The translations under genes and the position numbers were made by a program. A model generated the notes under the pieces. The model was not told the origin of the DNA and did not search any database. It saw only the letters and a list, made by a program, of their open reading frames with translations. From contig PMCS01000004.1 of NCBI GenBank assembly GCA_003154195.1, forward strand, positions 1 to 38,191: 38,191 bases of DNA, read 5' to 3'. This document shows, piece after piece, positions 1,961-38,062 of the stretch; the stretch's first letter is position 1; each line of letters begins with the position of its first letter. This DNA is from Candidatus Omnitrophota bacterium (GTDB taxonomy: Bacteria > Omnitrophota > Gorgyraeia > Duberdicusellales > 4484-171).

Positions 1961-2084
1961 TTGGTTAGGGTAAGGGTAACGATGCCAGTATGGGTTAGGG
2001 TTAAGGTGAAGGCCTTAGAATTAGTATCGGCCCTAACCCTTGCCTTAACCCAAACCGGCTTCTTTACCCTAGCCTTAACCGATT
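1961..2084. repeat. Family A palindromic repeat, hexamer-period (A1)
   Basis: Left arm ggttagggtaagggtaacgatgccagtatgggttagggttaagg is largely complementary to right arm ccctaacccttgccttaacccaaaccggcttctttaccctagccttaacc. Confidence 0.9.
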
Positions 2085-2096
2085 AACGTATCTCTC

Positions 2097-2987
2097 TCAC
2101 TCTGTATAATCAGCCTGGCTCAACAAATATCCCAAAACAACCTCGCCTAGATTATGCTCGGGTTTTAGGCCTTCCTTTTTGGCGATTGCCTCTAAGATAT
2201 AGTATAATTTTACTTCTTCTTCGGCCAGCGGTTTCAGCTTTTCCTCGATATCTTTTTTATATTTTTCGATATCCTCTTCCGGAATATTTCTTGAACGCAG
2301 ATGATACAACTCCCTATCCATTAATTCTTTATGGCGCTCTTCCAGCTCATGCCGGGGGATATCGGTTTTAATTTTATCTAAAAGGTGCTTGGAAATCTGG
2401 CTGTCGATCTTACGCCGCCTTTCTCTCAGTTTTTCGACAAAAATCTCGGCTTTTACCGCCTCGCGAAATCCGGCGATATTAGGATAGCCCGCCCATCGGG
2501 CTAAATCATCGTCATTTAAATCTTTTTCGGTAGCTTTCTTTATTTCTTCTTTAATATTGGTCAAAACTTTCTCGATTTCCTCTTCCTTGACCTCAGCCGC
2601 CTTATCCTTAACCTTGATCCCCCGATATTCCGCTTCGTCAAGCTCCAGTTGCGGTTTGATTTCAAGCTGAGCGCAAAATTTTAAGCTTTTATCGGTAAAT
2701 TCAATGTCGGAAATATCAGGGTTGCCGGCGGGAATAAGCTTATTTTCATCCAGGGCATTTTTATAATACACCGGAAGCATTTTTTTTAAAAATTCTTCCT
2801 TAAGCGACCCGGAATATCTTTTCTCTAAAACATCCAGCGGCGCGCTCCCCGGACGAAACCCGGGAACTTTTAAAGACTTGCCGATTTCGGCATAAGCCTC
2901 TTTTCTGTCCCGGGACAGGTTCTCTTCTTCGATTGTGACAGTTATGATTCTTTTTAGCTTATCAATTTTTTTTACTTCCGTTTTCAT
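2097..2987 (-). CDS. tig: Trigger factor-like chaperone lacking the PPIase domain
   Basis: N-terminal ribosome-binding motif GFRPGSAPLDVLEKRY and C-terminal helical domain; 296 aa with no FKBP-like segment. Confidence 0.88.
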   Translation of the reverse strand: MKTEVKKIDKLKRIITVTIEEENLSRDRKEAYAEIGKSLKVPGFRPGSAPLDVLEKRYSGSLKEEFLKKMLPVYYKNALDENKLIPAGNPDISDIEFTDKSLKFCAQLEIKPQLELDEAEYRGIKVKDKAAEVKEEEIEKVLTNIKEEIKKATEKDLNDDDLARWAGYPNIAGFREAVKAEIFVEKLRERRRKIDSQISKHLLDKIKTDIPRHELEERHKELMDRELYHLRSRNIPEEDIEKYKKDIEEKLKPLAEEEVKLYYILEAIAKKEGLKPEHNLGEVVLGYLLSQADYTE

Positions 2988-3023
2988 TATAGATTCTCCT
3001 CAATATTAATATGTCTGTTATTT

Positions 3024-3044
3024 AAATCCGCCCAGGGCGGATTT
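3024..3044. repeat. Perfect 10-bp hairpin aaatccgccc-a-gggcggattt
   Basis: Direct base-by-base complementarity. Confidence 0.9.
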
Positions 3045-3048
3045 GCCG

Positions 3049-3086
3049 ATAAATTCACCTTGCGGCTTGCCGCAAGGTGAATTTAT
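3049..3086. repeat. Perfect 18-bp dyad (2-nt loop) abutting the lptB stop codon
   Basis: ataaattcaccttgcggc-tt-gccgcaaggtgaatttat. Confidence 0.92.
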
Positions 3087-3809
3087 TTACATCCGGAAAT
3101 CTTTACCCAGATAAACCTCTTTCGCCTTGGTATCATTTATCAAATCGCTCGAGGTGCCGGAAATAAAAATATTTCCCTCGGCGATCAGGTACGCCCGATC
3201 AGTTATGGAAAGTGTCTCGCGCACATTATGATCGGTCAACAGTATTCCGATGCCTCTTTGTTTAAGGTCGGCAATAATCTCTTTTGCTTCACCGACCACA
3301 ATCGGGTCGATTCCGGAAAATGGTTCATCCAGCAAAAGAAAAGACGGATTATTCACCAAAGCCCTAGTAATCTCAAGCCGGCGTGTTTCGCCGCCGCTTA
3401 GCGTATAGGCTTTATTTTTTCTCAAATGAGAGATCTTAAGTTCTTTCAACAGTTCCTCGAGCCGCCGGTTGCGTTCCGTCGAACTCAGCTCAAGCGTTTC
3501 CAATATCGCCATGATATTCTCTTCGACGGTAAGTTTACGAAAAACCGACGGTTCCTGAGAAAGGTAACCGATACCGTAACGCGCTCTGGTATGAACCGGC
3601 AAATACGTTATATCCTGATTATCAAATAAAATCTCCCCGCTGTCGGGAGAAACAATACCGACAATCATATAAAAAGTAGTGGTTTTACCGGCGCCGTTGG
3701 GCCCAAGCAAACCCACAATTTCTCCCCGGTTTACCGAAAGCGATACGTTTCGCACTACCGTCCGGTAGCCGTAGGATTTGATTAAATTATTCACCTCAAG
3801 TAATTTCAT
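3087..3809 (-). CDS. lptB: LPS export ABC transporter ATP-binding protein LptB
   Basis: Walker [15 protein letters not shown] signature, Walker B FLLLDEP; LptB-like throughout. Confidence 0.95.
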
Positions 3810-4648
3810 AAATGAGGAGACTTATCCCCTTCCTTAGAGAAGTATATAACTTTTGGCCTGCCTTCAAGCGTAAGCCGGTCATCCACGGCGAAATAGGTAG
3901 CCTTGCGCGCGTAAGTAACGTTTTCCTCTTTTAATATCTTCACTTTACCGATGCAGATTATTTTTACCATCCGTTTGTTTTTCGCGTCAAAAAATACTAC
4001 CGCCTTATCGCAAAAAATCTTAGCTTGCTCGCTCTCGATAACGACATCTTTTATAAAAACAGCCCGGCCCTTGTTGTAATCGATTTTCAAAGGCCCTACG
4101 CTGGTAGCAATAACCGGTTTTTTATCGCTGCCGCCGGGGACAAATCTGGCGTTTACATCCTCCTCAAAGTCGGCGTTTTGAAGCGCGGTATCGGCAGTGA
4201 AACCCTTCGCCTTCACCTCGACGCTCTTATTTCCTACCCTTACCCAATCGTCGGTTTCAACAATATTTTCATTGCGGTGCCAGTTTAAACGATTCGTGTC
4301 AAAAGAAATACCCTGGCGGTTTTCAATATGGACATTATCTCTCAAAAAAATATTCATATTTTCCTTACTCAACTTGGCGACATCGGACATTATCTTAACC
4401 TCATCGTTGGTAGTGTAATAGGTAGCCTTCATCACATCGATATCGATATCCTTATCGTAAATCGTAGCGTAATCACCCCTCACCTCCCAATCCTGCAAAC
4501 CGTTTTCTTTATAATTAGAAAGGTAGAAATCCTTAATCCTCTGCTTGGCAGCGCCGGTCGCGTTCACGGCAGTAAGATTCTGCCCGAATGCCGTTAGGGC
4601 AAATAAAATATTAAAAAGTAAAAAGGATATTTTTTGTTTTAAAAACAT
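3806..4648 (-). CDS. Putative LptC-LptA fusion for LPS transport
   Basis: 280 aa with signal peptide; LptC-like [12 protein letters not shown]...TYYTTNDEV, then OstA/LptA-like half [19 protein letters not shown]...[13 protein letters not shown]; 4-nt overlap with lptB. Confidence 0.75.
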
Positions 4649-4704
4649 ATTAATATACCAAATTAACGGGTAAAGTCAAATTGCAAAAATTTTAAAATTT
4701 AGAC

Positions 4705-5244
4705 TCAAACTTTCAGAAACCTACTAATTATATCCCCAAGTCCCCGCGCCTCGATAATAAGATCGACGACTTCCCTCACCGCCCCTTCTCCGCCGTATCG
4801 TTCAGTCACATAGGCGGCGGCTTTTTTTATAACCGACGGCGCATCGCCGACCGTAACCGGAACCCCGACTTTTTTCATCAACCCCAGATCGAGCAGGTCA
4901 TCGCCCATAAAACACATTTCGCCTTCGCTGACTTTATATTGTTTCTTTATCAGCGGCAGGCTCTGTTCCTTAGGTAAAATCCCGGCAAAAACTTGCGCGA
5001 TTTTCATATCGCGCGCGCGGCGGCGGACAACCGGGCCGTCCTTGGCGGTAATGATTATCGTTTTAATACCGGCCGCGGCCAAAAGAACTACTCCCAGGCC
5101 GTCTTTAACATTAAAAATCTTCGATTCACCGCCATGGCTGTCATAAATTATCTCGCCCCTGGTCAAAACCCCGTCGACATCAAGCAAAAGAAGTTTTACT
5201 TTTTTGAATAAATCTTTAGTATTGCGGCTTTTTCCACGCGGCAT
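4705..5244 (-). CDS. kdsC: 3-deoxy-D-manno-octulosonate 8-phosphate phosphatase KdsC
   Basis: HAD motif LLLLDVDGVLTRGEI, FMGDDLLDLGLM. Confidence 0.93.
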   Translation of the reverse strand: MPRGKSRNTKDLFKKVKLLLLDVDGVLTRGEIIYDSHGGESKIFNVKDGLGVVLLAAAGIKTIIITAKDGPVVRRRARDMKIAQVFAGILPKEQSLPLIKKQYKVSEGEMCFMGDDLLDLGLMKKVGVPVTVGDAPSVIKKAAAYVTERYGGEGAVREVVDLIIEARGLGDIISRFLKV

Positions 5245-5284
5245 ATTATTTTATACCAAAATATTTTATTGTTTTCAAAACGGA

Positions 5285-5350
5285 CGGGACTCAGGCCTGT
5301 CCCTACGATATCCGCGATCATCTGCTTCTTCCAATCCGCGATCATCTGCG
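5285..5350. repeat. Small intergenic repeat: gggac..gtccc hairpin plus two direct copies of atccgcgatcatctgc
   Basis: 16-nt copies at 5310-5325 and 5334-5349. Confidence 0.8.
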
Positions 5351-5353
5351 CTA

Positions 5354-6334: not shown

Positions 6335-6354
6335 TTTTACCTCTTATCTTTTAT

Positions 6355-7584: not shown

Positions 7585-7587
7585 TTT

Positions 7588-9145: not shown

Positions 9146-9195
9146 AACCTACACCCTTTAGCCGTAAAGACAACTAAGCGATCATTTTCGGGATT

Positions 9196-9284
9196 TCATT
9201 TTAAATTGGTCATTGAGCATTTATCATTTTAAATTTTTAAAAATGACAAATGTCCAATGGTCAATGATAATTTTAAAATGGGTT
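9196..9284. repeat. Family B palindromic repeat, heptamer-period (B1)
   Basis: cattttaaattggtcattgagcatttatcattttaaatttttaaaaatgacaaatgtccaatggtcaatgataattttaaaatg. Confidence 0.9.
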
Positions 9285-9288
9285 AATG

Positions 9289-10278
9289 CTATAGCTTGCT
9301 TTCATCAATCCGCTTGAACAACTCTTGTTTGCTGGTGGTGGCGGCGCCGCGTTTGCCGACAACAATGCCGGCGGCAAAGTTAGCGATCGTCGCAGCCTCC
9401 AAAAAAGAAGCGCCGCATGCCAGGGCTAAAGTGAAAACGGCAATGACCGTATCGCCCGCGCCGGTAACGTCAAAAACCTCCAGCGCAAAAGTAGGGATAT
9501 GATGCCGGCCCTTGCCGTCAAACAACATCATCCCGTCTTCGCCTAAAGTGATCAACAGGGCGGACGGTTTCAGCTTAGCCATGATCATATCGCCCAGCAA
9601 GGGGATATCGCTCTTATTCTTAATTTTCACCCCCGCGGCGTTTTCCGCTTCTTTTAAATTGGGGGTAAGCGCCGTCACGTTCTCGTAATAATCAAAATGC
9701 TCTTCCTTGGGGTCAACCGTAATAATCTTTTTTTTCTTTTTGCATAAACCGACAACTTCGCTCAAAAAAACCGGATTAACGACGCCCTTCCCGTAATCTT
9801 CGATAATCAGGGCATCAAAATCATCGATATGCTTTTTAATTTTTCCCGCCAGAGTATTATTGGTTTCCGGCGCCAAAGGCTCCAACGATTCCCAATCAAG
9901 CCTCACCACCTGCTGATGGTTGCCGATAATCCTTGTTTTTAAAGTGGTCGGCCGGCCGCCGACCTTAGCCGCATATCGAGTATCGATACGGTTTTCTTTC
10001 ATCAGGGAAAACAAAACATTACCGAAATGATCATTGCCGACCACGCCGCAAAGGCCGGCATACGCTCCTAACGCGACTAGATTAAGGCCGACATTAGCCG
10101 ATCCGCCGCAAACGAAATTCTCCCGATTCGCCCACACCACGGGAACGGGAGCTTCCGGAGAAACACGGTCGACCTTGCCGTAGATATAGTGGTCGAGGAT
10201 AAGGTCTCCCGCGACGAGAATTCTTTTTCCTTTAAATTTCGAAATTATATTTTTCAGGTGTTGTTTATCCATAATCAT
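9289..10278 (-). CDS. D-glycero-beta-D-manno-heptose-7-phosphate kinase (HldE/RfaE kinase domain only)
   Basis: PfkB family; ILVAGDLILDHYIYGKVDRVSPEAPVPV and DVTGAGDTVIAVF. Confidence 0.93.
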   Translation of the reverse strand: MIMDKQHLKNIISKFKGKRILVAGDLILDHYIYGKVDRVSPEAPVPVVWANRENFVCGGSANVGLNLVALGAYAGLCGVVGNDHFGNVLFSLMKENRIDTRYAAKVGGRPTTLKTRIIGNHQQVVRLDWESLEPLAPETNNTLAGKIKKHIDDFDALIIEDYGKGVVNPVFLSEVVGLCKKKKKIITVDPKEEHFDYYENVTALTPNLKEAENAAGVKIKNKSDIPLLGDMIMAKLKPSALLITLGEDGMMLFDGKGRHHIPTFALEVFDVTGAGDTVIAVFTLALACGASFLEAATIANFAAGIVVGKRGAATTSKQELFKRIDESKL

Positions 10279-11224: not shown

Positions 11225-11240
11225 AGGTAAATAAAAATTG

Positions 11241-11376
11241 TTTTAGGGTAAAGGTAAGGATGCCAGTATAGGCTATGGTTAAGGTAAGGGCTAAAAATTG
11301 ATTTAAACCTTAACCATTACCATAACCCAAACCGGCTTCGTAACCTTAACTAGTTTTAGCCTATGCTACAGCTAGG
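11241..11376. repeat. Family A palindromic repeat (A2)
   Basis: ttttagggtaaaggtaaggatgccagtataggctatggttaagg ... accttaaccattaccataacccaaaccggcttcgtaaccttaac. Confidence 0.88.
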
Positions 11377-13206: not shown

Positions 13207-13223
13207 GTACCCTCCTAAAAACC

Positions 13224-13426
13224 AGGTTAGGGTAAAGGTAAAGAAGCCTGTATGGGTTAAGAACTGGGTAAGGGCCAGGGTAAAGATGCCGGGGTGGGTT
13301 AGGGCTAGGGAAACGGCTTAAGAAATTATTTTAAACCCTAACCCTCACCCTTACCCAAACCGGCCTCGTAACCATAACCTTAACCCAGTATTAATTATAC
13401 CGGCTTCCTATCCATAGCCTTAACCT
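13224..13426. repeat. Family A palindromic repeat, two modules per arm (A3)
   Basis: ggttagggtaaaggtaaagaagcctgtatgggttaagaactgggtaagggccagggtaaagatgccgg... with a matching right arm. Confidence 0.88.
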
Positions 13427-13431
13427 ATTTA

Positions 13432-14469
13432 TTATATTCCCTTTTTAGCTACCCGCTCGACCACCTTCACCGCCAAGGCTACCACCGAGTTTAAATCGGC
13501 CAGCGAAAAAACACCGGTGGGAGAATGGATATAACGCGTGGGTATGCTCAGCACTCCCGTAGGGACACCTTCTTTGTTCATGTAAATAATCGCGCCATCG
13601 GTCATCCCGCCGTCAATAATATCGAGCTGATATTTAATTTTATTGCTCTTCGCGGTTTCGATAAAAATATTCCTTATCCGCTCGGCAACGATAATGCCCC
13701 TGCCGGACGCCTCCATAATCGTTATACCGGCGCCGCGGCCCAACTTAAGGTTGGATTCCTTCTCCTTGACCTGCGGCATGTCGCCGGCAACCGTCGTGTC
13801 GACGGCAATAGCAAAATCCGGTTCAATTTTAAACGCGGCAGTACGCGCGCCCTTCAACCCCACTTCTTCCTGAGCCGTCGCCACAGCATAGACCGTCGCG
13901 CCGTCCGTCTTTATTTTTTCCATAATCTTTATCAGCGCGTAACAGCCCGCCCGATTGTCGATTGCTTTGCCGTAATATAATTCGCCGCCCAGCTTGCCGA
14001 AGTTAGGTTCAAAAATCACCGGGTCGCCGATGCCGACTTTTTTTTGCGCGCTTTTTTCGTCACCGCATCCGATATCGATAAACATATCGTCGTATTTAAG
14101 CGGCTGTTTACGCTCATCCTCCTTCAGCAAATGCGGCGGCTTAGCCCCGATAATGCCGAGGCAGTCCCCATTCTTAGCTTTTACCACCACCCGCTGTCCG
14201 ACCAAAATCCGGTCATCGATACCGCCCACTTTGATAAAACTCAAATACCCGTCTTTCCCGATGTACTTGACTAAAAGCCCGATCTCATCCATATGGGCGG
14301 CCAGCATTATCTTTTTTTTCCCGCTCCCCCTTCGCGCAACGACATTGCCGAAAGCGTCGATAAAGACCTCGTCGCAACATTTAGCCAGCTCATTTTTCAT
14401 AATGGCAGCGATTTCGCTCTCAGAACCGGAAACGCCCGCCGCGCAAATTATTTTTTTTAAAAGCTCCAT
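13432..14469 (-). CDS. M42 family metallopeptidase / glutamyl aminopeptidase-like
   Basis: MLAAHMDEIGLLVKYI, KAIDNRAGCYALI, ATAQEEVGLKGARTAAF, PTRYIHSPTGVF. Confidence 0.93.
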   Translation of the reverse strand: MELLKKIICAAGVSGSESEIAAIMKNELAKCCDEVFIDAFGNVVARRGSGKKKIMLAAHMDEIGLLVKYIGKDGYLSFIKVGGIDDRILVGQRVVVKAKNGDCLGIIGAKPPHLLKEDERKQPLKYDDMFIDIGCGDEKSAQKKVGIGDPVIFEPNFGKLGGELYYGKAIDNRAGCYALIKIMEKIKTDGATVYAVATAQEEVGLKGARTAAFKIEPDFAIAVDTTVAGDMPQVKEKESNLKLGRGAGITIMEASGRGIIVAERIRNIFIETAKSNKIKYQLDIIDGGMTDGAIIYMNKEGVPTGVLSIPTRYIHSPTGVFSLADLNSVVALAVKVVERVAKKGI

Positions 14470-14509
14470 TGTAGAACCTCCCGATAATAGGTTTAATTCT
14501 TAAATCAAG

Positions 14510-14652
14510 GCTATCAGGGTATTGGGTAATTAGGGTTCGGTAATTGAGGTATTGGGGTATTCGGCCGTTAGTTATTGTCTCTTCGAAATCTTTCCCAATC
14601 TCCCAATTGCCCAATCCCCGAATCCCGATATCCTAAACCCCGATATCCTAAA
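14510..14652. repeat. Family C palindromic repeat, octamer-period (C1)
   Basis: gggtattgggtaattagggttcggtaattgaggtattggggtattcgg ... cccaatctcccaattgcccaatccccgaatcccgatatcc. Confidence 0.9.
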
Positions 14653-14713
14653 CGGAAACTCCCGGAAGTATATAATTATACCAAAATATCAGCCCAAAAC
14701 AATCCCAAAATAA

Positions 14714-15909: not shown

Positions 15910-17034
15910 CTACACCAACGCGCTGGACGCTTCATCGCCGAACAAAAAACCTTTACGCGTGAGCCTCACCCCTTTTATTTTACCGTTTCTTCGGATATAC
16001 GCAATAAGCTTTTTTCCTAAAAGACCATCAACCGCTTCGTTCTCCAACAACATAAAATCAACGCCAAAACGCCGCCTGAACCACCCGAAGTCGATTCCCT
16101 CGCGAGTGCGTATTTTTACCGCCGCCGCCTCTTTGGCCCGGGATAAAACCGGTAAAGAATCGCGTCCAACGGCAACGCTTTTATCTGCTGCCGCTTTTTT
16201 AATGAAGCGGGAAACGTCGTCGTCATTGGTTATCCGCCTTCCGTTGACATAGGAAACTGCCGCCGCGCCGATCCCCACATATTCATCGCCTTGCCAATAA
16301 CTAAGATTATGCCGGCAGGCAAAACCTTTTATGGCAAAATTGGAAATCTCGTATTGCCGGAACCCTTTTCGCGGTAAATATTGCATCGTATATTCATACA
16401 TCGCCGCGGCCATATCATCTTCAGGCGGATCAACGGCAGTTTTTTTGAAAGTTTCCCATAACCGCGTGCCGCGTTCGTAGCTAAGCGCGTAAGCGGAGAC
16501 ATGCGTGACCGGCAAAGAACAAGCTTGCGCTAAGTCCTTTTTCCATTCCCGCAGGCATTCACCCGGCGCGCCGAAAATAAGATCGATCGAGATATTTTTA
16601 AAACCGCTTTGCCGCGCGAGCCGGACCGCCGCCCGTGCCTGCGCGCTGTCATGGCACCTTCCCAATTTCTTTAGTTTGGCGTCGTCAAACGACTGGACGC
16701 CGATACTGATTCGATTAACACCGTTATCCCTGAAAAGCGCGAGCTTGTCGGCAGTTAGACTCTCCGGATTGGCCTCAACGCTGAATTCCCGGCACCCGCG
16801 AGAAAATAACCGCAAACCGCCGAAAATTTTCCGCAGGAGTTTCAGGCCTAAAACCGTCGGCGTTCCGCCGCCGACATAAATACTCGAAAACGAACCATTA
16901 AGGCTTTTAAACTGCCGGCAGAGAATATCCGCGTAACGCCCGGCCAGAGCAGGATCGTAAGGGATACTGCAAAAATCGCAGTAGAAGCATTTCTGACGGC
17001 AAAACGGAATATGTATATATAATGTTTTAGCCAT
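15910..17034 (-). CDS. hemW: Radical SAM heme chaperone / HemN-like protein HemW
   Basis: LYIHIPFCRQKCFYCDF, YVGGGTPT, SIGVQSFDD, YEISNFA. Confidence 0.93.
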   Translation of the reverse strand: MAKTLYIHIPFCRQKCFYCDFCSIPYDPALAGRYADILCRQFKSLNGSFSSIYVGGGTPTVLGLKLLRKIFGGLRLFSRGCREFSVEANPESLTADKLALFRDNGVNRISIGVQSFDDAKLKKLGRCHDSAQARAAVRLARQSGFKNISIDLIFGAPGECLREWKKDLAQACSLPVTHVSAYALSYERGTRLWETFKKTAVDPPEDDMAAAMYEYTMQYLPRKGFRQYEISNFAIKGFACRHNLSYWQGDEYVGIGAAAVSYVNGRRITNDDDVSRFIKKAAADKSVAVGRDSLPVLSRAKEAAAVKIRTREGIDFGWFRRRFGVDFMLLENEAVDGLLGKKLIAYIRRNGKIKGVRLTRKGFLFGDEASSALV

Positions 17035-17035
17035 A

Positions 17036-17252
17036 ATATTTTAAATTGAACATTGGCCATTAATCAATGATCATTGGAAAAACCTGTAACCACTTACGGC
17101 CTTATTCATTTTAAATTGAGCATCGGCATCCGGCATTTATCGTTTAAAAATTTAAAATGGCCAATGGTAAATGCCAAATTTAAAATTGTTTTTTCTTCCA
17201 TTTTCTTCTTCCATTGTAAAATGATCAATGTACAATGCTAAATTTAAAATTA
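17036..17252. repeat. Family B repeat cluster in a divergent intergenic region (B2)
   Basis: cattttaaattgagcatcggcatccggcatttatcgtttaaaaatttaaaatggccaatggtaaatgcc plus partial copies on both sides. Confidence 0.85.
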
Positions 17253-17305
17253 TTATCGTTGCGCCTTTTAATCTGCACCTTAATATGTTAAAATATTATA
17301 TCCCA

Positions 17306-18559: not shown

Positions 18560-18569
18560 AATCATTGTT

Positions 18570-18602
18570 TTATCCGTGATCGTCAGTGGCTAAAAAACAT
18601 AA
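18570..18602. repeat. Family E repeat fragment (E1)
   Basis: tttatccgtgatcgtcagtggctaaaaaac. Confidence 0.7.
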
Positions 18603-18647
18603 TGAGGCATTGCACTGTCAATCAGCGGCAAAATTCTCTGGAATCTT

Positions 18648-19539: not shown

Positions 19540-19772
19540 AAGAAGACAAAACCGTTTTACCACCAAGGCACAAAGATTATAAATACGTAATTTCATTTTA
19601 AATTGTTCATTGACCATTTGCCATTTTAAATTTTTAAAAATGATAAATGTCCAATGCCCAATAATACTTTTAAAATAAATTAATCATTGGTTTTTGTGCC
19701 TTGGTGTCTTCTTAGCAAAACTTTTGGTTTTATTTTCTTAGTGTCTTGGTGGTAAAATCTTTATGGTTTTGT
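19540..19772. repeat. Compound repeat: family D (D2) with family B (B3, 19592-19688) nested inside
   Basis: accaccaaggcacaaag ... cattttaaattgttcattgaccatttgccatttt... ttgtgccttggtg...cttttggttttattttcttagtgtcttggtggt. Confidence 0.9.
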
Positions 19773-20649: not shown

Positions 20650-20826
20650 AAAAACCTAAAACTTACCACTAAGGCACCAAGAAAGATAAAAAAATATCAC
20701 GGAAAATTAATGCGCAAATTAAATATATTTCCATCAAGTTTGAAAATTTACTTTTCATGCCTTAGTGTCTTTGTGCCTTAGTCCCCTTCGGGGAGGCTTT
20801 GCACTGGTAAATCTTTTGGTTTTACT
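20650..20826. repeat. Family D repeat (D3) with an inserted ccccttcgggg hairpin
   Basis: acttaccactaaggcaccaag ... ccttagtgtctttgtgccttagt[ccccttcggggaggctttgcact]ggtaaatcttttggtttta. Confidence 0.85.
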
Positions 20827-23184: not shown

Positions 23185-23297
23185 AACAATTAATCCGTGT
23201 TCATCAGTGACAATCCGTGGCAAAAAATTGTCATGTTTTTTATTAATTCTCAATTATAAAATCCGATTAATCTGAGCAATCTGTGGACAATGTATTT
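23185..23297. repeat. Family E (E2) and related family F (aatctg) repeat
   Basis: ttaatccgtgttcatcagtgacaatccgtggcaaaaaattgtcatg; ccgattaatctgagcaatctgtggacaatgta. Confidence 0.8.
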
Positions 23298-24387: not shown

Positions 24388-24432
24388 ATCTTATCCGTGC
24401 TCAATCCGTGTTTATCCGTGGCAAAAAATTTT
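24388..24432. repeat. Family E repeat, one arm only (E3)
   Basis: ttatccgtgctcaatccgtgtttatccgtggcaaaaaattt. Confidence 0.75.
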
Positions 24433-25616: not shown

Positions 25617-25660
25617 GCGTTATTCTCCTTCGCCGAATACACCGCGGCTTACTAAAGATT

Positions 25661-25688
25661 ATTCAGCTTCGGAGAAATGAAGCTGAAT
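25661..25688. repeat. 10-bp hairpin attcagcttc-ggagaaat-gaagctgaat
   Basis: Perfect complementarity. Confidence 0.8.
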
Positions 25689-25776
25689 ACCTCGCGCGCT
25701 CTTCTCCGCTTCTCCGAAGCTTCGAAGAAGCGCGGGAGAGGCGTGCCGCGCGGTAGGGGAGGGGTACATTTGCGCT

Positions 25777-25935
25777 TCATTCCGGTTTGATTTCTATCTT
25801 GCCTAACCCCTCCGGCAGGGGTTGAGTCTTTTCGTTGTTAACCGTATATTGCCACTCGTCATAATCAAACGAAACCACGTAGCAATGCGCTGCTTCTTTA
25901 CCGTCAAATTTTACCACAAATCCGCCGTCGGACAT
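25777..25935 (-). CDS. Small hypothetical protein, 52 aa, below the ORF-track length cutoff
   Basis: MSDGGFVVKFDGKEAAHCYVVSFDYDEWQYTVNNEKTQPLPEGLGKIEIKPE; strong SD aaggagg before atg. Confidence 0.7.
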   Translation of the reverse strand: MSDGGFVVKFDGKEAAHCYVVSFDYDEWQYTVNNEKTQPLPEGLGKIEIKPE

Positions 25936-25956
25936 AAAACCTCCTTAAATGAGCAG

Positions 25957-26024
25957 ATGATTTATGAAAATTACTATTTTCATAAATCATAGGCCTTGAT
26001 ATCTTTCACACCAAGGCCGTCTGC
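25957..26024. other. Two adjacent hairpins inside a short enclosing stem; possible structured RNA or site
   Basis: atgatttatgaaaa-ttacta-ttttcataaatcat (14 bp perfect); ggccttg...caaggcc; gcaga/tctgc flanking. Confidence 0.6.
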
Positions 26025-26090
26025 GAATTTAATTCCGCAAAGCTCTTTAATGTAATTATCAAGCGTTCGGGATGAAATACATAAATACAT
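25980..26090 (-). pseudogene. Short ORF, possibly a gene remnant (36 aa)
   Basis: MYLCISSRTLDNYIKELCGIKFADGLGVKDIKAYDL; another frame upstream gives LLLARWIHEIMDKKE*. Confidence 0.35.
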
Positions 26091-26167
26091 AAAAAAATAT
26101 TGTTATTCTTTTTTATCCATAATTTCATGTATCCAGCGAGCCAGGAGTAGACATCTGCGTTTATTTA

Positions 26168-26186
26168 AACGTGTCTGTCCCCTTTA
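26168..26186. repeat. aacgtgtctgtccccttta, copy 1
   Basis: 19-nt exact match to 26988-27006. Confidence 0.85.
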
Positions 26187-26199
26187 TTATCTCCCCTTT

Positions 26200-26712
26200 C
26201 TAATTACTCATTCCCTGTTGCAATTTTTTTATATTCCTCTGCACTTCCGGGTCATTCGTAAGATTCATAAACTTTTCGTTTTGCATCAATGCCTGGACAT
26301 TACCGGATTTTAAAGCTTCCTGCGTATCGGGGTCATTAACTAATTCCTGGATCTGTGTATTATTGGCCATATCCTCGACAACAGCCATGCTTTCCGGATT
26401 GTTCATCAACTTCTCCTTGTAAAAATCAATTTGCGGCTGGGTGATATTGGCTGGTTGCGCATCTGGGTTGGGCTGAGTGAGGGGCGGCCGGGCGTTTACG
26501 GATTCGATTTTAGAAATCCTAGCCGCCTCAATTTTCATCTCCCCTAAACTGTCGGTGCTTATATCATACATCCCATCGGCAAAAGAGATTATTTCTCCGT
26601 TAATCACGCTGCCGTCGGTCAATTCTATCCTGCTTATCTGCCCGCAATAGGCATGCATGCTGGATAAGCTAAACGCCAGAAAAAAAATATAAAGAATAAC
26701 TGTTTTTTTCAT
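26200..26712 (-). CDS. Secreted/periplasmic small protein with C-terminal STI1-like NP/DP repeats
   Basis: Signal peptide; IELTDGSVINGEIISFADGMYDI; NPESMAVVEDMANNTQIQELVNDPDTQEALKSGNVQALMQNEKFMNLTNDPEVQRNIKKLQ. Confidence 0.65.
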   Translation of the reverse strand: MKKTVILYIFFLAFSLSSMHAYCGQISRIELTDGSVINGEIISFADGMYDISTDSLGEMKIEAARISKIESVNARPPLTQPNPDAQPANITQPQIDFYKEKLMNNPESMAVVEDMANNTQIQELVNDPDTQEALKSGNVQALMQNEKFMNLTNDPEVQRNIKKLQQGMSN

Positions 26713-26770
26713 ACCCGCTCCTTTTGTATACCCGGAACTTCATAGAAAAATACATGTTTCCCACCCGCAT

Positions 26771-27006
26771 AGCCGAGGGCCGAAATAGGCGAGGCTGGCA
26801 AAGGCGAAGCGCAAGCGAAGTCCCGAGCGTTTCCGGAACTTCTAGATAAAAAGCACTAACCCCTTTTCCTTAAAAGGCGCTGCCCCCTTTATCCTCCCCT
26901 TTCTCCCCTTTCTCCTATCCCCCTTTCCGCGTTTAGCCCGATATCCAGACGCGAGGGGTTAATGCTTGCATTTATTACTAAAATAAAAACGTGTCTGTCC
27001 CCTTTA
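26771..27006. repeat. REP-like intergenic region: GC-rich gccgaggg/aggcgaggc unit, long imperfect stem, and copy 2 of the cgtgtctgtcccc motif
   Basis: agccgagggccgaaataggcgaggctggc; gcactaacccct (26853-26864) / aggggttaatgc (26954-26965); aacgtgtctgtccccttta (26988-27006). Confidence 0.75.
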
Positions 27007-28528: not shown

Positions 28529-28534
28529 AACAAA

Positions 28535-28662
28535 TCAAGGAAATTGGGGTATCAGGGCATTGGGATTAGGAAATTAGAATATTGGGATATTTATATATAA
28601 ATACTGATCACCTAATTCCCCAATACCCAAATCCTGATATCCTGGTTCCCCTATATCCTGCA
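28535..28662. repeat. Family C palindromic repeat (C2)
   Basis: ggaaattggggtatcagggcattgggattaggaaattagaatattgggatat ... caatacccaaatcctgatatcctggttcccctatatcctg. Confidence 0.88.
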
Positions 28663-28697
28663 TATTAAAAAATAGAAATCAAGCACACATTCTGGAA

Positions 28698-29712: not shown

Positions 29713-29850
29713 TAGCCACTGATTGACACGGATAAACACGGATTTAGATAAAAAACAACATGGTTAGTTTTAAAGTTTTTTATTCCAAGAACTTAACAAA
29801 TACATTATTTATCCGCGACAATCAGTGTTAATCCGTGGCTAGAATAATCC
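29713..29850. repeat. Family E palindromic repeat, decamer-period (E4)
   Basis: agccactgattgacacggataaacacggatttagataaa ... tttatccgcgacaatcagtgttaatccgtggct. Confidence 0.88.
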
Positions 29851-30066: not shown

Positions 30067-30082
30067 AATCCCCTCCCTCTAA

Positions 30083-30224
30083 ATTAAGGAGATTAGGATA
30101 TTAGGGAATTGGGATTTGGAAATCAGGGTATTGGGATATTACTTATCGTCTCTTCGAAATCTTTCCTGATCTCCCAACTCCTCAATCCCCAAATCCCGAT
30201 ATCCTGATCCCCTGATATCCTAAA
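30083..30224. repeat. Family C palindromic repeat (C3)
   Basis: ggagattaggatattagggaattgggatttggaaatcagggtattgggatatt ... ctcaatccccaaatcccgatatcctgatcccctgatatcc. Confidence 0.9.
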
Positions 30225-30233
30225 AGAAAATTA

Positions 30234-31194: not shown

Positions 31195-31377
31195 AAAATA
31201 CTTAACCACAAGGACACCATAACAACAAAACCAAAAACTTCACCACCAAGGCACCAAGACACTAAAAAAGATTTAAAGATTATATCTTTTCTTTGTCCCC
31301 TTTATGTCTTGGTGATAAAACTTTATGGTTTTTAATCGTGCCTTCGTGGTAAGGCTTTTGGTTTTATTTTCTTAATG
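31195..31377. repeat. Family D palindromic repeat (D4)
   Basis: aaaaccaaaaacttcaccaccaaggcaccaagacac ... cgtgccttcgtggtaaggcttttggtttta. Confidence 0.9.
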
Positions 31378-31379
31378 CC

Positions 31380-32936
31380 CTACTTAATCTGCCGGGTTTC
31401 CGGCAAAATCGACTCGGTTACTTTAGGCAACTCCCCAAAAACATTTTGGTAAATCTCATTATATTTATCCTTACCGCCGATAAGGGCGCAGGTAAGCGGC
31501 ATGATTTTTTTCGCGGCGCTGCTCATCGCGCGGGAAATGTTTTGTATATCCCATTGGGCGTGGCTGTCTTCCCGCAGGCGCGAAATATGGCAAAGTTCCC
31601 GGGCGCTGACGCGCATCAGGACACGGCGCCGGTGAGCGTTGGTTAAAATATAGGGCGCCGCCAGAGGAACAGTTTTATTGATTGTATTATAAACTTCGGC
31701 GGATTCATCCGCGATTGCTTTAAAATATTTAGCCATACCGATTTCTTTTATCGACCGGGGTATCGTTAAGCCCAGCCGCGGGTCATAATCCTGAATGGTA
31801 ATGGTCGACATACGGTGGCGTTTCAACTGGCCAAAACAGGCGGCCGATAAAACAATATCGAAGGTAACGCCCGCGTATTCGAATTCCCGCAGCAGCGAAT
31901 CGTAAAACTGCATATTGCGCCACGCGGTTTTAAAAATAAGCTCTTTATCTTTCCGGGGCATTTTGCGGACAATCTTCAGACAACGTTTAAATGGCGCGGC
32001 CGATGAGGTGTGCAATATCGCGGCGGCAATAATCAAATCGGCGTCCCGGGTATAATCGACTATTTCAACTTCTCCGGCGCCCTTACGGCCGGTTTTCGTC
32101 CCCGTCAGGCCCGCCTTGCTCGCCTCGCGGCGAAGCCGAGGGCTAAGCAGGCGAGGCAGGCCCGCAGCAAGTTCCCGTAACTGCGGATAAGTCTTCCGGT
32201 CGCGGTCGTTGGCCTGGTGGAAAATAACAATCGAAGGAGCTACCTCGAAGGTTTCCTTATAAATAAGACGGCCCAAATCTTTAATTTCCAGCAGCGGCGA
32301 AGAAGCAAAACGCCGAAGCATCAGTTCCAAATTACGGGCGTTAATCGTAAGGCCGGCCTGGGACTGGGTCGCCAAAGCGGTGATATACCGGGCGTCTTCC
32401 TTAGCCCATCCTTCGAGTAAATTATGTTTTTTCTGGTCTTCGGCGAGACGGGGGTTATTTTTAAAAACATAAGTTTTTAACTTTCCCAGGAGCTCGAAAT
32501 AAGCGTCGTTCTGCCGCTTAACCATACCGATAAATTTCTTTTCCAAGCCCGTCCCGACCAATTCCTTGGGGACGACAAAATCCTTATCCAGGGTAATATA
32601 CCGCTGGGATTTTTCTGTGTACGAACAAAGCCGGAATTTCTCCAGCTCTTCCATAGCCAAACGCGAAGCGCCCAGGATATCGAGATTGAAAACGCTGTGT
32701 TCCGCCACCGAATGATGGCCCATTTTAAAGATAATCGTCTGGTTCGATTTACGCGAACGTTCGACTTCCAACCGTGCTTCCTGCCGTATTTCATTAATCG
32801 GTTTGGGGTCTCGGCTGATCCGCGCGTAAGCCGCGGAAATTACTTCCGGGGTGACATCATCACGCCGGCCGGTTTTTGCCTGCAGCTCTTCCAATACTTG
32901 CGTGTCTACATTATAACCCGCTAAATAAACTTTCAT
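31380..32936 (-). CDS. Tandem-domain ThyX-like FAD-dependent thymidylate synthase family protein
   Basis: 518 aa; MGHHSVAEHSVF and FRLCSYTEKSQRYITL in first half; FGQLKRHRMSTITIQDYDPRLG and SARELCHISRLREDSHAQWDI in second half. Confidence 0.85.
   Translation of the reverse strand: MKVYLAGYNVDTQVLEELQAKTGRRDDVTPEVISAAYARISRDPKPINEIRQEARLEVERSRKSNQTIIFKMGHHSVAEHSVFNLDILGASRLAMEELEKFRLCSYTEKSQRYITLDKDFVVPKELVGTGLEKKFIGMVKRQNDAYFELLGKLKTYVFKNNPRLAEDQKKHNLLEGWAKEDARYITALATQSQAGLTINARNLELMLRRFASSPLLEIKDLGRLIYKETFEVAPSIVIFHQANDRDRKTYPQLRELAAGLPRLLSPRLRREASKAGLTGTKTGRKGAGEVEIVDYTRDADLIIAAAILHTSSAAPFKRCLKIVRKMPRKDKELIFKTAWRNMQFYDSLLREFEYAGVTFDIVLSAACFGQLKRHRMSTITIQDYDPRLGLTIPRSIKEIGMAKYFKAIADESAEVYNTINKTVPLAAPYILTNAHRRRVLMRVSARELCHISRLREDSHAQWDIQNISRAMSSAAKKIMPLTCALIGGKDKYNEIYQNVFGELPKVTESILPETRQIK
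32105..32166. repeat. GC-rich imperfect palindrome inside the ThyX-like CDS, related to the element at 26771
   Basis: gccttgctcgcctcgcggcgaagccgagggctaagcaggcgaggcaggc; shares agccgagggc and aggcgaggc-ggc with 26771-26799. Confidence 0.75.
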
Positions 32937-32974
32937 CTTTGCTCCCTTAAAAAAGTAATGCCAAAAACTAGATG

Positions 32975-33205
32975 TAACAACAAACCCATAAAGATTTTAC
33001 CACCAAGACACAAAGTACACAAAGAAAAAAATACATGATTTAATTTTAAATTGTTCATGGCCATTTGCCATTTTAAATTTTTAAAAAATGATAAATGTCC
33101 AATGCCCAATGATACTTTTAAAATGAATTAATCATTGGTTTTTTGTGCCTTGGTGGTAAAGTTTTTGGTTTTATATTTTAGTGTCTTGGTGGTGAAAATG
33201 GCTTT
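32975..33205. repeat. Compound repeat: family D (D5) with family B (B4, 33042-33143) nested inside
   Basis: ttttaccaccaagacacaaag ... ttgttcatggccatttgccattttaaattttt... taatcattggttttttgtgccttggtggtaaagtttttggtttta. Confidence 0.9.
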
Positions 33206-33209
33206 GCCT

Positions 33210-33674: not shown

Positions 33675-33682
33675 TAAAAACC

Positions 33683-33862
33683 TTTGTCCACAGATTGCTC
33701 AGATTTTTATAGATTTGTGGAAAATACAAAAACTGATATTTTGATTTAATTTTTGCTTTAATATAATATGTAATTCGCTGTTACGCGGATTATCCAGATT
33801 TGTCCATGCCAGAATTTTCTTTTCAATCTGCGCCAATCTGAGAAATCTGTGGACTATATATT
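33683..33862. repeat. Family F palindromic repeat (aatctg words)
   Basis: gtccacagattgctcagatttttatagatttgtgg ... caatctgcgccaatctgagaaatctgtggac. Confidence 0.82.
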
Positions 33863-33889
33863 TTTTAAGGCAACGGGGCACCGGATAGG

Positions 33890-35749
33890 TTAATACTTCT
33901 CTTTAATGACCGTGCCGGGGTAATAATGCTCCAGGATATCTTTATAGCCGAATCCCTCCCGCGCCATCCCCACTGCCCCATCCTGGCATAAACCCGCGCC
34001 ATGGCCGAACCCCGCCCCCCAGATTATAACCATCGCGGGCTTCCCGTAAGAATATTTAATTTCGATTTTAAACAAACTACTACGTAATTTATCGAAATAA
34101 TTCCGGATGCTCAGGCCGCCGTCGAGAGCGATTTTTTCCTTACCGACTGCCACATCGACACGCTCATAGCGAAAGCATTCGCCCTGGGCGCCAGGTTTAA
34201 TCTTTTTTACATCCGCCAAGGGGTATCCGAAAACAAGAAAAAAATCTTCGCGGTCGTAAATCCTCTGCCAACGAAAATTGCTCCCGCTCGACTCTCCCGC
34301 GCAGAAAGCCGGAAAGCGGCGTCTGACCCATTCCTCTTCTTCATAAGGAGACAGGGACACCGGCGTGTTATCCTCAGAATCGAACTTATTCTTTGGATAA
34401 GCTTGCTTACCAAAAAAAGACGAGCGCGGGCATCCGCCGCAATTAGCGTGGTAGAATACTTCAAGCGGCGCGCCGTTGTATTCGGCAACCTCCCCCCTGG
34501 TCTCGTCAACAGCAAGGCTCGCTCGTTTATTCTCCGATAAAAACCCTAAATAAGCCTGGCAATGCGGCTCCGCGCAAAAATCAAAACCTTCCCTGCGGTG
34601 ACGGCCTGAATTTTTAAAAACAAAAGTACGAGCGGCCACCGCCTGGGCCTTAAGCGCCTCTTCGGGAGAGCCGGGGTTAATCTCCGACGGTAAAACGCCG
34701 TAGAGATAATCCTCAACCGTAAGCTCATTAATCAACGTTATGCCGCTCTTATCCCGGACAACCCGCATCCCGCCCCGATAGGCCCGGTCGGCCTGCGCCT
34801 GCCAGAAATTATTTTTACCAAACATCAAGTCCAGGATATATAACGGGTAAGCCGTCGGTTTGATTTCCACCGGCCCGTAAAACCGCGCGTATTCTTTTTT
34901 GGTTTTGTAATCGGCGATTGTTATTTCACTGCCGTTAAGAGAAACCAGGTAAAATTTATCCGGCGCTACCGGGAAAGAACTCTTGCCGCCCAAGACCACG
35001 GTAGCGGCTCCCGAACTAAAGACAAAATCATCCAATCCAGCGGCGATGCCGACCGTAACATAAGGTATGCCTTTCCCCGGCGCATAGGGAAGCAGTTTAA
35101 TGCCACCCCGCCGCGCTTCTTTCTCTTCCCTTTCCTTTAAGAAAAAACCTTTCCCCAGAAGGCTCCGGGCCGCCTCAAAGGCTTTCATGATCGGTATATT
35201 GCGCGGATAAAAATTAGCCGCTTTCGACAAATAGCTGTACGCTTGTCCGTAATTCTTTTCTTTTAAAAATAAATCGCCCAGATAATAATTGACAACACGA
35301 ATGCTGGAATCATAAGCGTTAAGGCGGATGAAATAATTTTTCGCTTCGGCGTAAGCGCCTTGATGATAATAAATTTTACCAAGCCGGTAAAGGGCGATAC
35401 TGTTTTTTTCCAGGGCCAGGGAACGGGAGTAATTTTTTATTGCCGGGACGGTTTTGCCTAAATCCTCGAGGGCTAAACCGAGATACACAAAATCAAGCCA
35501 GTCTTTTTGCCGAATCCGGCTAAAAATCCGTAACGCTTTCCGGGGGTAACCGCCGAGGAAATAAATACGGGCAAGGTACTTTTTTACCCGCTCATCCCCG
35601 GTTTTAGCGCTCAATAAAACTTCAATGGCTCGCGAGTAATTCCCCGCCTCTTTATACGAAGCGGCCCGGTCGAGGCATTCACGGCTATCGGCGTATCCCG
35701 ACGCAGAAAAAACCAGTAAAAAAATAGAAAATACAAAAAATCCACGCAT
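33890..35749 (-). CDS. TPR-containing SpoIID/LytB domain protein
   Basis: LTVEDYLYGVLPSEINPGSPEEALKAQAVAARTFVFKN, GWGAGFGHGAGLCQDGAVGMA-like C-terminus; N-terminal TPR helices. Confidence 0.9.
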   Translation of the reverse strand: MRGFFVFSIFLLVFSASGYADSRECLDRAASYKEAGNYSRAIEVLLSAKTGDERVKKYLARIYFLGGYPRKALRIFSRIRQKDWLDFVYLGLALEDLGKTVPAIKNYSRSLALEKNSIALYRLGKIYYHQGAYAEAKNYFIRLNAYDSSIRVVNYYLGDLFLKEKNYGQAYSYLSKAANFYPRNIPIMKAFEAARSLLGKGFFLKEREEKEARRGGIKLLPYAPGKGIPYVTVGIAAGLDDFVFSSGAATVVLGGKSSFPVAPDKFYLVSLNGSEITIADYKTKKEYARFYGPVEIKPTAYPLYILDLMFGKNNFWQAQADRAYRGGMRVVRDKSGITLINELTVEDYLYGVLPSEINPGSPEEALKAQAVAARTFVFKNSGRHRREGFDFCAEPHCQAYLGFLSENKRASLAVDETRGEVAEYNGAPLEVFYHANCGGCPRSSFFGKQAYPKNKFDSEDNTPVSLSPYEEEEWVRRRFPAFCAGESSGSNFRWQRIYDREDFFLVFGYPLADVKKIKPGAQGECFRYERVDVAVGKEKIALDGGLSIRNYFDKLRSSLFKIEIKYSYGKPAMVIIWGAGFGHGAGLCQDGAVGMAREGFGYKDILEHYYPGTVIKEKY

Positions 35750-35756
35750 GTTTTTA

Positions 35757-35898
35757 CCCCGTTAGAGAAAGTTCCCCCCGTTAGAAGTACGCTCTAACGG
35801 GACAAGCCGACAGAGCCGATGGTATATATCCAGAAGCGGACAACGGTTTATACCGCCGTTGCGCAATACTATTAGAGAACAAAGTTCTCTAACGGGGT
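35757..35898. repeat. Gttagag-type nested inverted repeat with internal hairpins
   Basis: accccgttagagaaagtt ... aaagttctctaacggggt; ccgttaga-agtacgc-tctaacgg; aacgg...ccgtt. Confidence 0.88.
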
Positions 35899-35939
35899 TT
35901 ACTTTAGCATTAACTAGAAAATTTGCAACGACGAAAAAT

Positions 35940-36138
35940 AAACCACGAAACAACCAAAACAGCAAACCAAAAACTTTACCACGAAGGCACTAAGTTCACA
36001 AAGAAATTCAGTATATACCTTTAGGTAATTCTAAAAATCCCCCTACATGTTCTGAATATTTTACATCTGAAATTATCAATCTAGTTTTTCTTCGTGCCTT
36101 GGTGCCTTCATGGTAAAGCTTTTGGTTTTATTTTTAGG
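35940..36138. repeat. Family D palindromic repeat (D6)
   Basis: aaccaaaaactttaccacgaaggcactaagttcacaaag ... cttcgtgccttggtgccttcatggtaaagcttttggtttta. Confidence 0.9.
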
Positions 36139-36151
36139 GAAGTGCTTGTTT

Positions 36152-36991
36152 TTACTTTCCAATCACGGGGATGGCGAATTTTTTAGCCAGGGAAAGAAAA
36201 CGCTCTTTTTCCAGAATAATAACCTTTCCTTTTTCCAGAACCAGAGCGCCGGCTTTGATTTTTTTGAGGAGTTTTAGCGTGGATAATCCTACCACGGGGA
36301 CATCGAACCGTAAATCCTGAGTGCGTTTGCAGAATTTTAAAATCACGCAGCCGGCGCCGCCGAGAGAGTAAGCGCGTTTTATTGCCCGGTCGGTACCTTC
36401 GAACGATTCGAGAGAAACCACCGCCCCCTGCTTAACGGCGATAGTCTGTCCGACATCAAGCTCCACGTAACGGCCGGCGATAGCTACGCCGAAATCAATA
36501 TCCCGCGCCAAATCGACGGATAAAAACAGGCCGTCCATGACGCCTTCACCGGCCAGTTGATCTTTTAAATAAAGCGTAGAATCCAGAAATATTACTCCCT
36601 GATTTTGCAGATAACCGATGAGGGCGGTAAAAATCGTGTGGGGCCGGAAATCCGATATGCCGGCGGCAAGCGCGCGAAAGTCATCATCCCAAAGCTTCTT
36701 GCGAAAAATACGCACGGGGCTGACCTGGCCGGCCATAACCCATTCCAGGATACCATCTTTCTTTATCGCCGCGGTCAATTCACCCAACCGGCCGGGATTC
36801 ACCCAATAAACTTTATCGGCATATCGCGATATCGACACGCTGGTCTCACCCCGAAAAGCTACCGCCGCGATAAAAGAATTTTTATTTTTTTCTTTAATGC
36901 TTTTGATAAGAAGCAGAGGAAGAAGGCGGTTGCCGGCGATAACGCCGAGACGCAGATTATTAATCTTGGGAGGATTGTTGTTGTTATCCAT
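36152..36991 (-). CDS. lpxI: UDP-2,3-diacylglucosamine diphosphatase LpxI (DUF1009)
   Basis: LGVIAGNRLLPLLL, MAGQVSPVRIF, IAVKQGAVVSLESFEGTDRAIKRA. Confidence 0.93.
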   Translation of the reverse strand: MDNNNNPPKINNLRLGVIAGNRLLPLLLIKSIKEKNKNSFIAAVAFRGETSVSISRYADKVYWVNPGRLGELTAAIKKDGILEWVMAGQVSPVRIFRKKLWDDDFRALAAGISDFRPHTIFTALIGYLQNQGVIFLDSTLYLKDQLAGEGVMDGLFLSVDLARDIDFGVAIAGRYVELDVGQTIAVKQGAVVSLESFEGTDRAIKRAYSLGGAGCVILKFCKRTQDLRFDVPVVGLSTLKLLKKIKAGALVLEKGKVIILEKERFLSLAKKFAIPVIGK

Positions 36992-36994
36992 TAA

Positions 36995-37142
36995 TTAAGG
37001 GAATTGGGGTATCAGGGAATCGGGATCTGGAAATTGGGATATCGGGTATTTGGTTATAGGTCATAACCTCGTCGGCCTTTTCCCTAACCTCCCAATTTCC
37101 TAATCCCCAAATCCTGATATCCTAATCCCCTGCTATCCTATA
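36995..37142. repeat. Family C palindromic repeat filling the lpxA-lpxI gap (C4)
   Basis: gggaattggggtatcagggaatcgggatctggaaattgggatatcgggtatttgg ... cccaatttcctaatccccaaatcctgatatcctaatcccc. Confidence 0.9.
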
Positions 37143-37144
37143 AA

Positions 37145-37951
37145 TTACCGGCCGATTCCACGTTTCGACGAAGAAATAAAATCAAGAAGAATGTCAACTT
37201 CTTTTACAGCGGGATATTCGTTTTTGATAATCTCTTTAGCTTTATCAAAAGTATGATTTTCAAAAAAAAGCGTCTTAAAAACCTTTTTCAACGCTTGAAT
37301 CGTCGCGGCGGAAAACCCAGCCCGTTTTAAACCGACACTATTAAGGCCGCAGACAATCGCGGGATGGCCGTCGCACATCGAATAGGGCGGCGCGTCCTGA
37401 ACAACCTTGGAGCAACCGCCGACAATCGAATAATCACCCAGCCGGCAAAATTGATGCACGGCAGTCAACCCGCCAATCACTACTTTATTGCCTACTTCGA
37501 CACTACCGGCTAACGTCGCGTTATTAGCAAAAATATTATTATCGCCGACCAGGCAATCGTGGGCGATATGCGAATAGGCCATAAAAAGGTTGCCCCGGCC
37601 GACGATAGTTTTAGAATCGGGCCGGGTGCCGCGGTTCATCGTAACAAATTCGCGGATGATGTTATTGTCGCCGATTACCAAGAAACTGCGGCTGCCGTCG
37701 AACTTTAAATCCTGTGATATATTGCCGACCATCGCGTAAGGGAAAATATGGCAATTTTTTCCTACTTCAGTATATTCTAAAACATGGGCAAACGAATCAA
37801 TGAAAGTCCCGTCGCCGATCCGGACGTTATCGCCGATTACCGCGTAGGGGCCGATTGTAACATTTTTGCCGATAACAGCTTTGCGGCTTACCATCGCCCG
37901 GCGGTCGATTTTTTTTGCCTGTTTTTTGCTTTTTTGACTCTGCTTTTTCAT
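37145..37951 (-). CDS. lpxA: UDP-N-acetylglucosamine O-acyltransferase LpxA
   Basis: Hexapeptide repeats; FVTMNRGT, FMAYSHIAHDCLVGDNN, VHQFCRLGDYSIVGGCSKVVQDAPPY, LKRAGFSAATIQALKKVFKTLF. Confidence 0.95.
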   Translation of the reverse strand: MKKQSQKSKKQAKKIDRRAMVSRKAVIGKNVTIGPYAVIGDNVRIGDGTFIDSFAHVLEYTEVGKNCHIFPYAMVGNISQDLKFDGSRSFLVIGDNNIIREFVTMNRGTRPDSKTIVGRGNLFMAYSHIAHDCLVGDNNIFANNATLAGSVEVGNKVVIGGLTAVHQFCRLGDYSIVGGCSKVVQDAPPYSMCDGHPAIVCGLNSVGLKRAGFSAATIQALKKVFKTLFFENHTFDKAKEIIKNEYPAVKEVDILLDFISSSKRGIGR

Positions 37952-38004
37952 TTTTTTATCTGCCTATAAATTCTGAAAAATGGTTAAGATAAATTCATAA
38001 TAAA

Positions 38005-38062
38005 ACCCAAAACTTCACCACCAAGGCACTAAGAAACGATTCAAAACCGTAAAGCTTTATCA
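38005..38062. repeat. Family D left arm, apparently interrupted (D7)
   Basis: aaaacccaaaacttcaccaccaaggcactaagaaac with no matching right arm before the transposase. Confidence 0.75.

Follow-up and report, generated by a model that had tools for sequence, protein, structure and literature searches.

Palindromic intergenic elements built from short degenerate words in a Candidatus Omnitrophota genome, with one family scattered among distant bacterial groups

Paired tandem-repeat sites listed in Geobacter metallireducens as "predicted global regulator binding sites" by Aklujkar et al. in 2009 (PMC2700814) are the closest described counterpart of the palindromic elements reported here, which lie between the genes of a Candidatus Omnitrophota bacterium (assembly GCA_003154195.1). 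The window, meaning the whole stretch of DNA analysed (38,191 nucleotides), is one whole contig (PMCS01000004.1) of a 2.48 Mb genome in 34 contigs, with no congener within the collection used. According to the main text of PMC2700814, the G. metallireducens sites are made of tandem degenerate words of 7, 8 and 8/9 letters (MTYCTGA, GTTGCTYN and TCTCCGTS[Y]), stand mostly as pairs on opposite strands at variable distance, and occur in tens of copies and several families; IHF/HU was suggested for the paired sites, and a fourth set resembled multicopy sequences in many genomes. Further multicopy sequence families were given for G. bemidjiensis (PMC2996986). Tandem degenerate words of fixed length and two arms on opposite strands at variable distance are the shared features, and both were found here. 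Since the same architecture was listed in 2009, the kind of element is not new. The main text on G. metallireducens offers the sites with supplementary alignments and the IHF/HU suggestion, and does not test them for constraint, covariation, spread or turnover; the additions made here are a wider range of families (periods 6 to 10), tests of constraint and covariation, the distribution of one family (E) among distant groups, and the changes seen between orthologous gaps.

Miniature inverted-repeat transposable elements (MITEs) such as Correia, RUP and ERIC/RU are non-autonomous intergenic sequences of about 100-150 bp with inverted arms, and several of them show TA target duplications. To our knowledge, no MITE of this kind is built from a periodic word. 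Their likeness to the present elements lies in size, inverted arms, intergenic position and lack of autonomy, whereas no duplication was detected in family E here. Eukaryotic foldback elements have long inverted ends of short subrepeats and are much larger, and their likeness to the word arrays is an analogy only. The cyanobacterial STRR heptamers are dispersed intergenic tandem heptamers. Both these and the TAACTGA repeats of marine Beggiatoaceae are direct repeats of one 7-mer, without family-specific periods of 6 to 10; the TAACTGA repeats are dispersed between genes and their inverted arrangement was recorded only once (PMC4679880). RU elements have been described in PMC2759123. The repetitive extragenic palindromic (REP) sequences and the related BIME and REPIN, with their RAYT transposases (PMC2817692, PMC3116915), are likewise high-copy intergenic palindromes, but REP sequences are GTAG-tagged hairpins of 20-40 nt and not word arrays, and no RAYT link was found here. 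The E words were not found in print in open papers, supplements aside.

Autocorrelation of each arm against 1000 dinucleotide shuffles showed the word periods of the families in the window to be 6 (A), 7 (B), 8 (C), 8 (D) and 10 (E), with strong peaks in A-C and weaker ones in D and E. Families A, B and C each consisted of two facing arrays built from one word. Family A peaked at lag 6, or at lag 12 in two arms (best z 2.9-4.9; 6/6 arms p<=0.028), family B at lag 7 (z 3.5-3.9 in three of four arms, the remaining arm not significant) and family C at lag 8 (z 3.8-5.1; 8/8 arms p<=0.002). Family D showed lag 8 in one arm (p=0.01), with two other arms not significant, and family E showed lag 10 (z 2.8-4.9; p 0.05, 0.023 and <0.001), its three words being spaced at 10 and 10-11 with no exact period. 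The first-pass annotation of the window had claimed five families of repeats with inverted arms, each with its own fixed period. The repeats were present where it had placed them, and a distinct period per family was borne out by the autocorrelation peaks and by the same period in the variability between copies; the fixed periods stood for A-C and, with weaker support, for D, whereas E has no exact one, and there are more than five families. The further ones include families with the words GGCCGGTTN (9), CACAGATTT (9), GTCARAGY (8), AATCCCA (7) and CAGATRATC (10). Genome-wide, at least 40 full or near-full copies of family A (40 of 88 candidates scored) and roughly 35 copies each of B and C were found. 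Nested composites in the window were A in A, B in B and, at two places, B in D (Table 1).

Conservation was found in the words. Among 38 oriented copies of family A, the GG and A of NGGYWA were almost invariant in both arms and Y, W and N were variable, and some W positions were conserved yet mismatched between the arms (A against A, T against T). Column variability between copies was periodic at lag 6 in family A (p 0.008 and 0.0005), at lag 7 in family B (p 0.0055 and 0.005), and at lags 8 and 4 in family C (p<0.0005). As the variability follows each family's own period, it points to evolution under a word constraint and not to a relic of slippage. For the arm-pairing test, copies were oriented iteratively and variable positions were compared with partner-shuffled pairing; after orientation every A, B and C copy was clearly polar (21-72 bits, margins that are somewhat inflated, the copies being part of the model). 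Pairing at variable positions in family A was lower than in the shuffled pairs (0.348 against 0.392, P=0.003), it did not exceed the shuffled level in families B and C, and RNAalifold gave a covariation term of 0.02 for family A. A hairpin or RNA function for A-C was rejected on the basis of RNAalifold and the within-element pairing tests. The curated covariance models of Rfam had no match anywhere in the window. Across phyla, the two arms of family E agreed slightly in excess (0.667 against 0.551, p=0.0002), which may reflect taxon-specific subfamilies, the test having had no taxon control. Invariant word cores together with the lack of compensatory change indicate that the word is conserved and not the fold. 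The long hairpins that had been proposed can form from the arms, but in A-C they are not what selection sees, and the compensatory changes looked for between arms were not seen in these families, only E having its small excess. The proposal of phased binding sites fared better in one respect, as the words behave like recognition words, but spacings of 6, 7, 8 and 9 bp are off the helical repeat.

Of 85 element sites counted across seven families, 80 lay in assigned gaps and the others within called genes (2) or at the edges of sequences (3), whereas gaps >60 bp make up 14% of the sequence. Families A, B and C fitted closely between the stop codon on one side (median distance 4.5-24 nt) and the start codon on the other (14-29 nt). 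Flanking co-directional genes were opposed by family A (26:7, p=0.0013) and by family C (24:2, p=1e-5), and family B had no direction preference relative to them (17:13). One A copy within a locally reversed gene block followed the genes and not the region, which makes transcription a likelier reference than replication in this one case.

The genome was surveyed as stretches, and the clustering of gaps covered 438 kb with 244 gaps >60 bp, of which 117 joined one similarity component; nesting and mosaic structure of the elements account for part of this, and other repeats for another part. A detector for long palindromes whose arms are periodic, run without a target, marked 23 of the 122 gaps tested in this genome, against 3 of 130 from two Geothrix genomes and 0 of 126 from two relatives of the same family. 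Where it was scored, the period of the detected palindromes was usually equal in both arms, and further families with periods of 7, 8 and 9 were revealed. Word-array elements account for a considerable part of the DNA between genes in the Omnitrophota genome.

Distribution differed between families. None of 57 relatives had a match to family A, and a pattern of five GG..A. words produced few matches outside its own genome, several of which were simple tandems. Family E had 19 three-word arms in its own genome (none with the reversed control) and a single match among 34 same-family relatives (1/34); simple tandems were matched by the E pattern in one same-class genome. An 18-letter E pattern searched against the GTDB collection produced at least 120 matches, where about 7.5 exact matches are expected by chance (2 x 257e9 / 4^18). 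The matches listed came from at least 12 distant groups, including Planctomycetota, Proteobacteria (Gallionella, Sideroxydans, Methylobacter), Acidobacteriota (Geothrix, Bryobacterales), Bacteroidota (Pedobacter, Cecembia), Nitrospirota, Nitrospinota, Chloroflexi, Caldilineaceae, Verrucomicrobiota, Kiritimatiellae, Lentisphaerae, Latescibacterota, Poribacteria and others. Family E is not a binning artefact, since isolates carry it (Geothrix SG200, Adhaeretor mobilis, Pedobacter alluvionis and Cecembia lonarensis). Both arms were recovered by the strict pattern in about half of 80 E loci, and the consensus is AGCCACGGATGAACACGGATGAAACACGGAT, a loop and the reverse complement.

Comparison of orthologous gaps in Geothrix confirmed presence and absence of the elements, as for MITE-type elements. 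Across 41 Geothrix genomes, the site of an E element in Geothrix SG200 contained E in some and was matched by its flanks without an element in many, while a 9-letter family (CGCAGATGA) occupied it in two genomes and a remnant in one. An alignment of SG200 with a congener (181 kb, 93% identity) showed 18 insertions or deletions of >=40 bp, of which about 8 were word-array palindromes as judged by eye, with at least seven word types among them. One gap held a 7-letter array in one species and an 8-letter array in the other. In SG200 (L302-L331), the TAG stop codon of the neighbouring gene appears to come from the E element, and congeners without E have TGA beside the next start.

The explanation favoured here, held tentatively and falling a little short of probable, is that the families are non-autonomous, dispersed elements of fast turnover whose words are read by a DNA-binding protein, one unit per word. 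The element would be a piece of about 60-160 bp with two facing arrays of one short word. A trans-acting protein would read the duplex word by word, each word taken by one protein unit, so that the period would correspond to the protein footprint, with a separate protein or variant for each family. Two protein filaments would be united in a synaptic pair by the facing arrays, and the element would be moved by the word-reading protein or by a partner recombinase, presumably through transposition rather than another route. Copies would persist where genes stay intact, and deletion, to which near-perfect palindromes would be prone, would remove them. This explanation draws on the word constraint, the lack of a conserved fold in A-C, the turnover in Geothrix, the scattered occurrence of E, the placement in gaps and the self-nesting of A and B. 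Some copies may serve the host as binding sites, most plausibly those of A and C in view of their direction. The recurrence of family E in distant groups suggests a little-studied class of mobile DNA that is read word by word. It is rather unlikely that all word-array palindromes form one unrecognised class of bacterial mobile elements, set apart by architecture rather than sequence and sharing a type of oligomeric DNA-binding recombinase that takes words of 6-10 bp, each unit reading one word, in which changed specificity would give new families, congeners would swap families and some families would cross phyla. If a word-reading protein exists, it would amount to a new, modular kind of recognition in which word length is selectable, and regulatory change between genes could arise rapidly from it; as the words predict the footprint, the claim can be tested directly.

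Several results weigh against this explanation. No target-site duplication was seen in 45 E elements, although insertion without target duplication is known; the flanks of these elements carried an A-tract lying 12-15 bp beyond the left end and, symmetrically, a T-tract beyond the right end. Family E was not found in plasmid or phage records, where few E-carrying lineages are represented, and IMG/VR had just 11 stretches with it, which is odd for something that crosses phyla. The direction preference of A and C need not be expected of a purely selfish element. No event was found in strains close enough for exact ends, and no protein or recombinase was found either. A TA duplication suggested by a 2-bp overlap in BLAST coordinates of Geothrix was rejected, as the sequences themselves do not support it, and the flanks of the Geothrix elements were too diverged for a target duplication to be read.

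Under a rather unlikely alternative, which matches how the G. metallireducens paired sites were interpreted (PMC2700814), the arrays are host sites for regulation or chromosome architecture, binding a global regulator or nucleoid protein or acting on the transcript between operon genes. Word-level constraint seen as periodic variability, tight placement between stop and start codons and the single direction of A and C would all suit such sites, but IHF/HU predicts no separate word per family, B lacks a direction preference, A was found in none of the 57 relatives, E is nearly absent from same-family genomes, and the same gap is empty, holds E or holds another family in congeners. Replication slippage combined with template switching at short words, a process that would involve neither recognition nor function, is disfavoured by the periodic variability and appears quite improbable. 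It leaves unexplained the dozens of dispersed copies, the shared E family and the confinement of variability to periodic word positions, even if slippage typically produces tandem words, self-nesting and palindromes and a microhomology-like deletion remnant was seen in one Geothrix genome (G096).

Two explanations by known transposases were weighed in the same way. Ordinary MITEs derived from insertion sequences, one per transposase and with incidental internal periods, would fit in size, inverted ends, intergenic placement and copy number; they are nevertheless very unlikely, because no target duplication was detected in E and the periodicity is a conserved property that many unrelated families share. 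Reduction of the families to one ordinary MITE, which the first-pass annotation had set against its own reading, is not supported: no target duplication was detected in E, each family has unrelated words, and there is no link to a REP-type transposase. Little probability is likewise given to REP/REPIN-like elements moved as single-stranded hairpins by a Y1 (RAYT) transposase. The Omnitrophota genome has 5 Y1_Tnp matches, 27 of 30 E-bearing genomes have one, and the strand preference of A and C would suit single-strand insertion. However, Y1_Tnp was also present in 46 of 58 kin genomes searched, where E is nearly absent and A was found only in the Omnitrophota genome itself, and three E carriers had no match (Geothrix SG200, a metagenome-assembled genome of NPL-UPA2 and one of Gallionellaceae); the hairpin is, moreover, not conserved in A-C. 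The five Y1 genes of the Omnitrophota genome were not flanked by A/B/C arrays or E/D words, except at one locus (L031), and no E or D words, the only ones sought around foreign Y1 genes, flanked the best-scoring Y1 loci of E-bearing genomes. At the exceptional locus (L031:1150-2560), which speaks for a Y1 link and was the sole such case found, the transposase gene adjoins two CACAGATTT arrays and one D array.

The genes of the window are of the usual Gram-negative kinds, serving housekeeping and the cell envelope (LptC, KpsF/KdsD, KdsB, LpxI, an LpxA-like transferase, HemW and Thy1). The elements found between them are collected in Table 1.

Table 1. Word-array elements and single arms in the 38,191-nucleotide window
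Feature	Position	Strand	Remarks
Family A element (word NGGYWA, period 6)	1953..2090	+	two unequal inverted arms, core GATGCCNGTATGGG / CCCAAACCGGCTTC
Family A element	11233..11367	+	
Nested family A	13207..13433	+	inner copy 13260-13395; outer half-arms 13213-13261, 13397-13433
Family B element (CATTNNN / AATTNNN words, period 7)	9187..9290	+	
Nested family B	17032..17254	.	inner copy 17098-17187 (- strand); outer half-arms 17032-17077, 17215-17254
Family B element inside family D element	19581..19691	+	
Family B element inside family D element	33030..33140	+	
Family C element (word RGGRWATY, period 8)	14497..14657	+	
Family C element	28531..28663	+	
Family C element	30078..30229	+	
Family C element	36988..37144	+	
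Family D arms (CACNAAGR words, ~8)	19548..19760	.	ACCACCAAGGCACAAAG ... GTGCCTTGGTG, split by B element
Family D element, degenerate	20656..20820	.	
Family D element, both arms	31196..31385	.	
Family D arms around B element	32990..33196	.	
Family D element, both arms	35940..36134	.	
Family D, single arm	38008..38045	.	
Family D, single arm, contig start	65..91	.	
Family E element (CACNGATNNA words, period 10)	29715..29841	.	left arm 29717-29743, right arm 29808-29841
Family E, single arm, three words	24391..24425	-	
Family E, single arm	23188..23225	-	
Family E, degenerate arms	18569..18632	.	
9-letter relative of E (CACAGATTN / AATCTGNGN), two arms	33681..33850	.	
10-letter relative of E (ATCCGCGATCATCTGC), single arm	5307..5351	.	

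Other repeats were also met in the window. The gap at 35750-36151 had at its 5' end (35750-35910) a separate repeat on CCCGTTAGA with direct and inverted copies. The stretch 25617-26199 belongs to a longer family of repeats that carry GTCTGCGAATT as well as GAGCAGATGATTTATGAA ... TTCATAAATCAT hairpins and are also present in other gaps of the genome. The sequence AAACGTGTCTGTCCCCTTT occurred twice on the same strand (cores 26170-26182 and 26990-27002, within 26158-27002), where none is expected by chance, and the pair flanks an open reading frame of 170 amino acids at 26200-26712 with a weak STI1/HOP match. The unit at 26158-27002 looks like a small mobile or duplicated unit.

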